From NCBI RefSeq assembly GCF_900155985.1, contig NZ_FTMA01000001.1, forward strand, positions 372,001-436,000: DNA of 64,000 bases. Reading direction: 5' to 3'. The notes under the pieces were generated by a model. The model ran no database searches. It saw only the letters and a program-made list of their open reading frames with translations, and was not told the DNA's origin. Below are positions 14,742 to 18,432 of the stretch, piece by piece; position 1 is the first letter of the stretch, and each line of letters starts with the position of its first letter. The translations under genes were made by a program, and so were the position numbers. The stretch is from Maribacter ulvicola (lineage in GTDB: Bacteria; Bacteroidota; Bacteroidia; Flavobacteriales; Flavobacteriaceae).

Positions 14742-14804
14742 ATTGGTCGTTATTTTAAATTAAGTTGTTCTTAAAATGATAATTAAATAGAAATTTAAAA
14801 AAAT

Positions 14805-14840
14805 GTCCGTAAATTTGTCCGTGTACGCAAAAACGTCCGT
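14805..14840 (+). promoter_or_regulatory. three GTCCGT repeats around a -7-like box, upstream of the R-M genes
   Basis: Direct copies of GTCCGT occur at 14805-14810, 14817-14822 and 14835-14840 (12 and 18 bp apart). TAAATTTG at 14810-14817 fits the TAnnTTTG -7 box and is embedded between the first two copies; no clear TTG is found 19-21 bp upstream. Because the next gene starts with a recombinase arm-site binding domain, these repeats are candidates for its binding sites and for autoregulation. The role is inferred. Confidence 0.5.
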
Positions 14841-14848
14841 GAATAATT

Positions 14849-17056
14849 ATGGCAACAATTAATTTTTATTTAGACAAGCCTGACAAAAAAGGGTTTGCCC
14901 CAATTCATCTACGAATAAACTGTAACGGAAGTCAAGTAAAGATTTCTACGGGACAGAAAATAGAACCTAAAAACTTCAATAAATCCAAACAGAAAGTGAT
15001 TGGATTAAGTATAGAGTCTCACGAAATCAATCATTATTTAGATTTCCTAAGAGAACGAGCGGATGAACTTCTACACCATTCCAACAAAAAAAACTTTGTA
15101 CAAGACGAAGTGAAAAGCATATTGAACGAACACATCGAAAACTATAAAGAAAATAACAATGTAAGCATTGTAAAAGAACAGGTTACGCTTTATGGCAAAC
15201 CATTCACTTTTGTGGATTTATTTGCTGGCGCAGGAGGTTTTAGTGAAGGTTTTTTACAAGCTGAACATAATAATAAATTCTTCGATTTCGTTGTTGCCAA
15301 CGACATCAACGAAAATTGCGAATTAACTCATGTGGTTCGATACAATCATCAATTAGGATTGGATGCTGAGTTTTTAAAACAAGATATTACTGAACCAGAC
15401 TTTTTAGACAATTTATTAGAAAAAATTGATGGACGAAAAATTGACGTTGTTTGTGGTGGACCTCCTTGTCAAAGTTTCAGTCTTGCTGGAAAACGAAAAA
15501 AATTCGATAAAAAAGACGACCTGTTTTCTCACTATTTAGAAGTTATTAAGGTTTTACAACCTAAATACTTTGTTATGGAGAATGTCAAAGGAATTTTAAC
15601 TAAAGAGGGTGGAAAAATAAAAGAATTAATTATCAAGGAAATCAACTCTATCGTTGATACTAAGGAAATACCGCTACTAAATACTTTCATTAAAAGAATA
15701 AGGAAAGAATCAAATTCTTTCATTTTCGATAGTATTATAAAAAGAGTAGAACTTGAAAAACTACTTGAAAAGGATAAGGAAACTGGAAAAATTGATTTCA
15801 TTGGCTTTGTAGAGAATAGATTTAAAAAACTGACACCAAAAATAGCGGACTACAAAACCAGTAAAACAGACGAAAATATAAATACAATTCGCCACGGTTT
15901 TAATCTTTTGGCAAGAACAAAAGAATGGGAAAAATTAAAGCGTGACATTATCAAAGAAAAAGATTTTTGTAATATTGATAGTGATGATTTTGCAAATGCC
16001 TTTACAGATTTTCTAACCGAAATAAGTTCTGAAAATGTCATTTCAAAAATTGAGAATTCATTTAAAGCATTAAAAGTTCCAACCAATTACAAAAAGGATT
16101 GTGAGGATATTATAACTGCTTTAAAAATCTACACAACATCTTTTGATGAATCCATTGAGATTTTAAAATCTCATTGTAACAATTCACAAAAAAAAGAATT
16201 AGAGACTATTCTTGAAAGTATTAGACTTTATAAAATAGAGCAACCATTTGTCGCTAACGCATCAAATTACGGCGTACCTCAAAATAGAGAAAGAGTACTT
16301 TTTATTGGTTGTCGCAAAGACCAAAAGTATATTTCTGAAATTCCTGCAACAGTTTCAGAAGAAGAAAAAGTAACCATTTTTGAAGCTTTATACGATTTAG
16401 ACTTTATTGGCAACAATCAGGAAGCGCATCGTTATGAAGAAATTGATATTTTCGCTCAATACAATGGAACTGCAAAGAAAATGGCTAAACTTCTCAAAAA
16501 AAGAAAAATTAATGGGAAGCCTATTTCTAAAGGTGGAAAATCATTTGCAGAATGGTCAAAAAAAGGCAGATTAATTGAACGATTTAAGCCTCAGACAAAA
16601 CCATTTTATGTAAAGAGTACAGAAAGTTTGGAGAACGGAGAAAAATATTTCGACATACTTAACAATCACAAAACAAGTAATCAAAACGAAACAGTTATTG
16701 AAAGACTTAACGTGATTTTAAAAAATGGTAATTATAGAAAAGCACAACCAGAACTTGAGAAATTAAATCTTTCTACAAACAAGAGAAATTACAATGTTTT
16801 AAAACCAGACGAGCAAAGTTCAACAATAATGACTATTGCAGACGATTACATTCACTACAATTCGCCTAGGTCTTTAACAGTTAGAGAAATGGCACGCTTA
16901 CAATCGTTTGACGACTCATTTGTATTTCAAGGAAAACGGTCTACAGGTGGAAATAATAGAAAAACAGAAGTACCACAATACACTTTAGTTGGAAATGCTG
17001 TTCCGCCTTTATTAGCTAGAGCAGTCGCAAGTGAAATTTTAAAACATATCAAGTGA
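14849..17056 (+). CDS. DNA (cytosine-5) methyltransferase with N-terminal recombinase arm-binding domain
   Basis: Modification enzyme of a type II R-M unit. Residues 1-50 (ATINFYLDK..., APIHLRI, KISTGQKIEPKNF) look like the Arm-DNA-binding domain that opens Bacteroidota tyrosine recombinases, followed by a helical linker (56-78). The C5-methyltransferase starts near 119: motif I FVDLFAGAGGFSEGF (121-135), motif IV GGPPCQSF with catalytic Cys207, motif VI ENVKG (244-248), motif VIII QNRERVLFIG (478-487), motif IX RSLTVREMARLQSF (674-687), motif X GNAVPP (715-720). About 220 K/E-rich, helical residues are inserted between VI and VIII, far more than usual. The frame is continuous from the ATG at 14849, so the fusion is real in this sequence. 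The stop overlaps the nuclease start (GTGA). The DNA is visibly more AT-rich than its neighbours, suggesting transfer. Confidence 0.92.
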   Translation: MATINFYLDKPDKKGFAPIHLRINCNGSQVKISTGQKIEPKNFNKSKQKVIGLSIESHEINHYLDFLRERADELLHHSNKKNFVQDEVKSILNEHIENYKENNNVSIVKEQVTLYGKPFTFVDLFAGAGGFSEGFLQAEHNNKFFDFVVANDINENCELTHVVRYNHQLGLDAEFLKQDITEPDFLDNLLEKIDGRKIDVVCGGPPCQSFSLAGKRKKFDKKDDLFSHYLEVIKVLQPKYFVMENVKGILTKEGGKIKELIIKEINSIVDTKEIPLLNTFIKRIRKESNSFIFDSIIKRVELEKLLEKDKETGKIDFIGFVENRFKKLTPKIADYKTSKTDENINTIRHGFNLLARTKEWEKLKRDIIKEKDFCNIDSDDFANAFTDFLTEISSENVISKIENSFKALKVPTNYKKDCEDIITALKIYTTSFDESIEILKSHCNNSQKKELETILESIRLYKIEQPFVANASNYGVPQNRERVLFIGCRKDQKYISEIPATVSEEEKVTIFEALYDLDFIGNNQEAHRYEEIDIFAQYNGTAKKMAKLLKKRKINGKPISKGGKSFAEWSKKGRLIERFKPQTKPFYVKSTESLENGEKYFDILNNHKTSNQNETVIERLNVILKNGNYRKAQPELEKLNLSTNKRNYNVLKPDEQSSTIMTIADDYIHYNSPRSLTVREMARLQSFDDSFVFQGKRSTGGNNRKTEVPQYTLVGNAVPPLLARAVASEILKHIK

Positions 17057-18234
17057 GAAAGCTTACAGATGCAGAACAAGAAAAGATAAAATTACTAACT
17101 AAAAACCAAGTTTCTCTTACTTTAATTGAACCAACTGAAACGGGATTAAAAAAATCCATAATGGATGCAACTGGTTCAGTCCGTAGTTATTTGAAAAATG
17201 AAAATATTCACGATTACGAATTACAAAATCAAGGAACCGAGAGCAAAATAATGATTCCTGCAATAATTCATACTGGTTTTAAGATTATAAAATCTAAAGC
17301 ATCATTATATCGTCCTTCAACTAAAAAAGGAGACCCAAGGATTTGGTTCTATAGTTTAACAAAAGTTGCCTGCCCAAATGATATTATTGCAATAACATTT
17401 TACAATGATAGTTTCCAAGTTTTCAACTTGACAACGTTGGATATCAATGCGTTGATTAATTCAGCTATAATTAATCCTTTTCAAGAGTTAATTTCGTCTA
17501 TTAATTTTGAAGAAAGCGAAATTTCTATTGAATTGCTTAACAAACTTAAGGTTATATCAAAAAAAGGCTTTGTGAAATCTGAAGTTAATTCAGACACAGG
17601 AATAGGAAGAACTATAGAGTCACTTCTTGGAATTGAAATGAACTCTTCGAAATTACCCGATTATAAAGGCATTGAGTTGAAATCTTTTAGAGATGCTAGA
17701 AATAACAGAAAAGGATTATTTGGAAAAACACCTAACTGGAATTTAAGTAAATTCAAATCACGAGTTGAGATATTGGACACGTTTGGATATTGGGAAGAAG
17801 GTATTTTCCGCCTTTATAATACAATGAGAGGTACTGGTAGAAATGCACAAGGTTTGATTTTAAGAATTGAGGATAAAAAGGATTGGCTTGTTGAGAATTC
17901 TGATAGACCAGAGATTGGCAATTTTCTAGTTTGGGAGCTAGAAATTTTAAGGAAAACATTATTAAAAAAGCATAAAGAAACTTTCTGGATAAAAGCCGAA
18001 AGTAACATTGAGGATAATAATGAGTATTTTCACTTCAAAGAGGTTGAACATACTAAAAATCCGATGGTTGATAAATTTGAAATCCTCATTGAAACTGGAG
18101 CAATCACAATGGATTATCCTATTAAGAGAATGCCTAGTGGTAAAGTTGTAGATAAAGGCTGTAATTTTAAACTGAAAGCAAATTGTCTAGATTTATTGTT
18201 TCCACCAAGTGCAAACTATGATTTAATGGCATAG
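17053..18234 (+). CDS. MvaI/BcnI-family type II restriction endonuclease
   Basis: Restriction partner of the preceding methyltransferase. The C-terminal part carries the MvaI/BcnI fold signature: GIGRTIESLLGIEMNSSKLP then DYKGIELKSFR, giving Asp203-x4-Glu208-x-Lys210, the D-ExK arrangement of this family, with Glu189 upstream. MvaI cuts CCWGG and BcnI CCSGG; a related target is likely but not shown. The 393 residues exceed MvaI (about 250) because of an extra N-terminal region of about 170 residues of unknown role. The start is a GTG at 17053 whose last two bases are shared with the TGA of the methyltransferase gene, a typical coupling that makes the methylase first. No terminator is obvious after the stop. 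Confidence 0.88.
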   Translation: MRKLTDAEQEKIKLLTKNQVSLTLIEPTETGLKKSIMDATGSVRSYLKNENIHDYELQNQGTESKIMIPAIIHTGFKIIKSKASLYRPSTKKGDPRIWFYSLTKVACPNDIIAITFYNDSFQVFNLTTLDINALINSAIINPFQELISSINFEESEISIELLNKLKVISKKGFVKSEVNSDTGIGRTIESLLGIEMNSSKLPDYKGIELKSFRDARNNRKGLFGKTPNWNLSKFKSRVEILDTFGYWEEGIFRLYNTMRGTGRNAQGLILRIEDKKDWLVENSDRPEIGNFLVWELEILRKTLLKKHKETFWIKAESNIEDNNEYFHFKEVEHTKNPMVDKFEILIETGAITMDYPIKRMPSGKVVDKGCNFKLKANCLDLLFPPSANYDLMA

Positions 18235-18432
18235 CGGAATTAGCAACGCCTAAACTATAATCCTTTAATTACACTCACAAAAATATATAATAACCGTAAA
18301 AAATATCTCGCTACAGCAAATTCGAGGCTTTCAATCACCAACCCAATAAAGCCCACATATTTCAGGTTAGGGTTAATGTTTAGCTCCTATCAAGAGTAAT
18401 TTAGCAGTGCTAACCTTAAAATACTGCTATAC

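Follow-up and report, generated by a model that had tools for sequence, protein, structure and literature searches.

Analyses of a 64,000-nucleotide stretch of the Maribacter ulvicola genome (the window) revealed a C5-cytosine DNA methyltransferase (MTase) whose residues ~3–94 are, as judged from profile matches and predicted structure, an integrase-type Arm-DNA-bind_5 domain fused in frame to the enzyme. An array of GTCCGT sites precedes the gene (Table 1), and we consider it quite probable that the Arm domain binds this array and represses the MTase's own promoter. No earlier description of an Arm-MTase fusion was found in the open-access literature searched.

Table 1. Features of the methyltransferase locus (positions in the window).
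Feature	Position	Strand	Remarks
R-M insertion, approximate extent	14756..18344	.	versus empty site in same-genus genomes
Operator module 1 (putative), GTCCGT AAATTT GTCCGT	14805..14822	+	nearly invariant in 72 homologous loci
TAAATTTG, match to Bacteroidota -7 box TAnnTTTG	14810..14817	+	consensus from PMC9723704
Operator module 2 (putative), GTACGC AAAAAC GTCCGT, first site degenerate	14823..14840	+	homologous loci
Arm-domain C5-cytosine DNA methyltransferase	14849..17056	+	735 aa, coordinates including stop codon; Pfam and full-length homologues
Arm-DNA-bind_5-type domain	14855..15130	+	residues 3-94; Pfam, AF2, profile-profile
C5-MTase motifs I-VI	15203..15652	+	residues 119-268, catalytic Cys207; Pfam and homologue alignment
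All-helical insertion, motifs VI to VIII	15653..16183	+	residues 269-445; PF00145 split and helices in full-length model
C5-MTase motifs VIII-X and variable region between VIII and IX	16184..17053	+	residues 446-735
MvaI/BcnI-family restriction endonuclease	17053..18234	+	GTG start overlapping MTase stop; PF15515

The methyltransferase and its N-terminal domain

The Pfam search matched the protein to PF00145 (DNA_methylase, E=1.6e-53) in two stretches from residue 119 on, and motifs I, IV (PCQ), VI (ENV), VIII, IX and X of a C5-cytosine DNA MTase were present in order. Cys207 (in PPCQ), ENV (244–246) and the cores of motifs VIII–X were invariant in 37 of 37 dereplicated homologues, in agreement with an earlier interpretation made from the letters of the window (the sequence-only reading), which had described a complete C5-MTase with Cys207. 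The ~180-residue helical insertion between motifs VI and VIII, absent from the sequence-only description, was kept in all homologues. Its helices had pLDDT values of about 60–90 within an otherwise poor AlphaFold2 model of the full enzyme and, as the mean pLDDT of that model was 54, no conclusion was drawn on domain packing.

On comparative evidence, the start of translation at residue 1 is secure because M1-A2-T3-N5-L8 were invariant in the 37 dereplicated homologues, the protein has no further Met ahead of residue 243, and residues 1–78 had a pN/pS of 0.135, indicating purifying selection similar to that on the rest of the enzyme. The homologues share this start Met and show the signature of purifying selection. 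The invariant Met1 and the constraint on residues 1–78 run against a start after residue 100, the alternative named in the sequence-only reading.

That reading had assigned an Arm domain to residues 1–50, to be checked with Arm profiles and a structure prediction. The domain was borne out by the profiles, with an extent (residues 3–94) longer than proposed. PF17293 (Arm-DNA-bind_5) matched the whole protein at about residues 9–76 (E=2e-8, 35.1 bits) and the N-terminal 121 residues alone at E=3.5e-10 and 40.7 bits, above the Pfam gathering score of 22.6 bits, and it was the sole significant Pfam match in residues 1–121. When the N-termini of 37 homologues were compared by hhalign with Arm domains from 29 other ORFs, almost all of them integrases, the probability was 99.3% over residues 3–94. 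AlphaFold2 predicted a b-b-b-a-a fold (strands 3–8, 17–25 and 28–38; helices 55–76 and 85–113) with a mean pLDDT of 84. Divergent members were close to the PF17293 cutoff (L161, 22.9 bits; L163, 23.8 bits; L166, 20.2 bits). Foldseek and VIA-align searches of the PDB with the N-terminal model returned background-level matches only; the integrase arm domains 3ju0 (Z 4.0) and 3jtz (Z 3.8) were among unrelated rows and not above background. A sequence search of the PDB with the N-terminus found nothing relevant.

The N-terminal domain is homologous over residues 3–94 to that of the Bacteroidota tyrosine recombinases with PF17293. The enzyme differs from these in having no core-binding or catalytic recombinase domain, the MTase being attached instead; Pfam found no integrase catalytic domain in the 735 residues. 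The same genome also contains an ORF of 143–148 aa that consists of hardly more than an Arm_5 domain (L003, G000:C7:90182-90424) and is either a truncated integrase or a stand-alone Arm protein.

The restriction-modification unit

The protein encoded downstream of the MTase matched PF15515 (E=8.8e-77) and, in a sequence search of the PDB, R.MvaI (1.1e-9) and R.BcnI (5e-4). It shares its catalytic domain (residues 162–383) with R.MvaI and R.BcnI and differs from them in having about 160 extra N-terminal residues; on family homology, it may have an MvaI/BcnI-type specificity (CCWGG/CCSGG). M.MvaI and M.BcnI are N4-cytosine enzymes, whereas the modification enzyme here is a C5-MTase. The adjoining MTase and endonuclease genes are a type II R-M unit, and their pairing was retained in most homologues. 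The unit, about 3.6 kb long, was inserted here, since genomes of the same genus (L097 and L107) were contiguous across the insertion point, with the flanking transporter and GH3-like genes adjoining without it.

The endonuclease alleles were mixed. Most MTases ~95% identical to that of the window were paired with endonucleases only ~65% identical to its partner, and L028, L032, L049 and L064 carried the window-type endonuclease (78–96%). Endonuclease swapping among MTase backbones is likely. Several loci (L074:7204-8133(-), L076:7211-8158(-), L081, L083, L085 and L086) had, instead of the MvaI/BcnI endonuclease, a convergent gene of 309–315 aa (211 aa as read in L086) that ends at the MTase stop. 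Its product has an ESD...QCKTN motif, resembling PD-(D/E)XK nucleases, and had no match in Pfam, NCBIfam, PADLOC or the PDB where searched; perhaps it is an undescribed endonuclease. In L034 (L034:4104-6313), the R-M operon enclosed two defence genes, DzbA (PADLOC 3.5e-98) and DzbB (9e-51). Similar gene pairs, as judged by eye, lay between the MTase and endonuclease genes in L067, L072, L073 and L167, and in L051 the place of the DzbA/DzbB-like pair was taken by a GmrSD_N protein together with a protein of 207 aa.

Distribution and origin of the fusion

Full-length homologues were identified in about 70 Bacteroidota genomes (67–96% identity), with further divergent ones at 56–60%, so that the architecture does recur in other genomes, where the sequence-only reading had suggested looking for it. 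The hosts of the fusion and its array belong to several orders of Bacteroidota; no full-length homologue was found in the phages, viral contigs and plasmids searched. The N-terminal profile, run against 296 genomes of the order, had its five best matches in ORFs of 737–775 aa that were MTases (for L175, as identified from 613 residues), and the remaining matches were in ORFs that were shorter and for the most part about as long as integrases. When 296 genomes of the phylum were surveyed with Pfam, no Arm_5 ORF among the matches listed was longer than 486 aa.

The Arm domains of the MTases formed one clade (ultrafast bootstrap 87) in a tree of 18 MTase and 26 other Arm sequences, which tentatively, the domain being short, suggests a single capture of an Arm domain by an MTase. 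Based on this clade and the occurrence of the fusion in about 70 genomes, the fusion is old and has spread horizontally. It does not stem from a recent joining to a local integrase gene; the sequence-only reading had considered recombination with an integrase gene possible. There was no evidence for the accompanying idea that an ancestral helix-turn-helix was swapped out for a recombinase domain.

A conserved GTCCGT array over a promoter-box match

The array was located just before the ATG in 72 of 72 loci with an intact 5' end. Usually it consists of two tandem 18-bp modules, GTCCGT-N6-GTCCGT followed directly by about GTMCGY-N6-GTCCGY. The three GTCCGT repeats noticed in the sequence-only reading were confirmed as part of an array of four sites spaced 12-6-12 (sites at 14805, 14817, 14823 and 14835, the third being a degenerate GTACGC). 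Module 1 was kept in L070, L074 and L090, in which module 2 was missing or degraded. In 38 dereplicated loci aligned on the first site, the mean information content was 1.64 bits per base over the 36 bp of the array versus 0.16 bits at -100..-41. The first site lay 23 to 51 nt from the ATG; the internal spacing stayed constant while this distance drifted, and therefore the array is a unit.

In nearly all loci the spacer of module 1 makes TAnnTTTG, which in sigma-A promoters of flavobacteria is the -7 consensus (PMC9723704), with nn at its two freest positions. In the window, the matching sequence overlaps each of the two module 1 sites by one base. No clear -33 element was found at the MTase promoter region. 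The exact pair GTCCGTN6GTCCGT occurs once in the genome, as module 1, and a search of the rest of the genome for a regulon, tolerating one mismatch, gave 7 matches versus 9 for the reversed control, which is background. CCNGG, taken as the methylation site solely from the family of the partner endonuclease, was present in 0 of 72 promoter regions, and methylation of the promoter at an MvaI/BcnI-type site therefore appears unlikely.

Association of the array with the Arm-domain methyltransferase

A blind DNA-pattern search of 295 genomes of the class found GTCCGTN6GTCCGT pairs in 55. Where the spacer makes TAnnTTTG, an Arm-MTase was directly behind the pair in 8 of 8 genomes (G000, G127, G590, G415, G589, G574, G468 and G552), as it was in G143 (TAAAATTG); none of the other pairs examined in this search had one. 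The array was retained in homologues at 56–60% identity (L161–L166; also L175) and at the loci where the convergent gene replaces the endonuclease (L074, L076, L081, L083, L085 and L086). The latter indicates that the endonuclease is not needed for the array.

A host-encoded regulator, rather than the Arm domain, as the protein that binds the array is improbable because the array follows the gene, by horizontal transfer, through several orders of Bacteroidota. Such a regulator would have to be universally conserved, and this is unlikely for a factor with no other sites, as the window's own genome has no other exact pair. With a host factor and the endonuclease disfavored, the MTase is the remaining candidate ligand. 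Its N-terminal domain is related to integrase arm domains, for example those of lambda Int and Tn916 Int, which bind short repeats. GTCCG pairs were absent near 25 other Arm-domain ORFs, and the idea of an array common to integrases was rejected on this basis. As the related integrase loci have no GTCCGT repeats, these homologues cannot confirm the sequence read by this Arm domain.

We also considered that the Arm domain merely aids methylation through affinity or targeting, with no regulatory role and the array simply a promoter. Accessory DNA-binding domains can increase affinity; however, a promoter alone leaves the near-invariant GTCCGT sites at 12-6-12 spacing unexplained, and C5-MTases without an Arm domain have no such sites (GTCCG pairs upstream of 0 of 7), making this explanation very improbable.

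The origin of Arm domains in integrases, and the attC-like cassette contexts of many copies, would fit a role in mobility, in which a recombinase would attach at the array and the fused Arm domain would be an accessory factor. This too we regard as very doubtful, since the array lies inside the insertion, has no copy at its other end, and the insertion in the window ends elsewhere. The cassette-like boundaries in relatives (GTTACCTG/CAGGTAAC) are well upstream and unlike GTCCGT, and the enzyme has no recombinase catalytic domain. The array as the attachment site itself was rejected, as it did not coincide with the insertion ends. In many relatives (L022, L023, L027, L028, L041, L047 and L053), the R-M unit was bounded, ahead of the MTase gene and behind the endonuclease gene, by GTTACCTGC... 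and ...CAGGTAAC, and these bounded units adjoined varying attC-like hairpins (AACACCGTGTATA ... TATACACAA.CGTT), as if they were integron-type gene cassettes. The window copy was without such GTTACCTGC/CAGGTAAC ends.

Proposed self-regulation

The domain identity, fusion, coding constraint, array conservation, promoter-box overlap and exclusive array-gene association were all computed. On this basis we infer that the Arm domain is the array binder, that the TAnnTTTG match is an active promoter, and that binding would repress it. The self-regulating role put forward in the sequence-only reading gains strong comparative support from the operator-like array over the gene's own promoter in all homologues, with binding and repression as the presumptive steps. 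The C-terminal part of the enzyme would methylate cytosine in the R-M recognition site, and the N-terminal Arm domain would grip the array just upstream of the gene. Two or more enzyme molecules may place their Arm domains on the GTCCGT sites and block the -7 box. As module 1 straddles that box, bound enzyme would keep RNA polymerase off, and the promoter would be shut by negative feedback once there was sufficient MTase. In the M-R operon form, as in the window, repression would throttle both genes; where the partner gene is convergent, only the MTase would be affected.

A different outcome of binding, in which the enzyme activates or times expression or acts at the 5' leader, is unlikely. 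Module 2 is downstream of the presumed -7 box, probably within the transcript, and regulation by separate R-M controller proteins goes both ways (PMC12707154). Against this, the invariant part of the array is module 1, module 2 being lost or degraded in the three loci noted above, and a site overlapping the -7 box is what is usually seen with repressors.

Comparison with known systems

Self-repression is established for the SsoII, Ecl18kI and EcoRII MTases, and regulatory MTases are described as carrying a fused helix-turn-helix (HTH) domain at the N-terminus (PMC3978073, PMC12707154). The enzyme reported here resembles M.SsoII, M.Ecl18kI and M.EcoRII in being a C5-MTase with an N-terminal DNA-binding domain. 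At their own promoter these enzymes have a regulatory site that is not the one they methylate (PMC3978073, PMC12707154); its counterpart here would be the operator-like array over the TAnnTTTG-box match, with no CCNGG. It would thus function like a regulatory MTase yet lacks the class-defining HTH, having instead a b3-a Arm domain as the only significant match in its N-terminus. SsoII has a 15-bp quasi-palindrome (AGGACAAATTGTCCT) as its site, whereas the putative operator here is made of direct repeats in two 18-bp modules. The R gene of SsoII is transcribed from a separate promoter, whereas R here either shares the MTase operon or is convergent, and no stretch of raised synonymous conservation that might mark an internal endonuclease promoter was found in the MTase gene. 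Co-repression of M and R would give the endonuclease no delay, unlike in SsoII, and this counts against self-repression. R-M systems controlled by C proteins offer a likely analogy in their feedback via tandem operators at the promoter, and appear to differ in that the system here has no separate controller gene, the regulator being part of the MTase.

We think it probable that a tyrosine recombinase Arm domain was captured once as a sequence-specific transcription-control module, evolved an operator of direct repeats for itself and came to serve as feedback switch in an R-M system that spreads horizontally, giving a non-HTH class of regulatory MTase. Regulatory MTases in the cited reviews use HTH domains; the integrase-arm alternative would mean, if true, that feedback control of MTases arose more than once. 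In addition, the 36-bp putative operator offers a route to learning what DNA an Arm-DNA-bind_5 domain reads, which would be relevant to the many Bacteroidota integrases that carry one.
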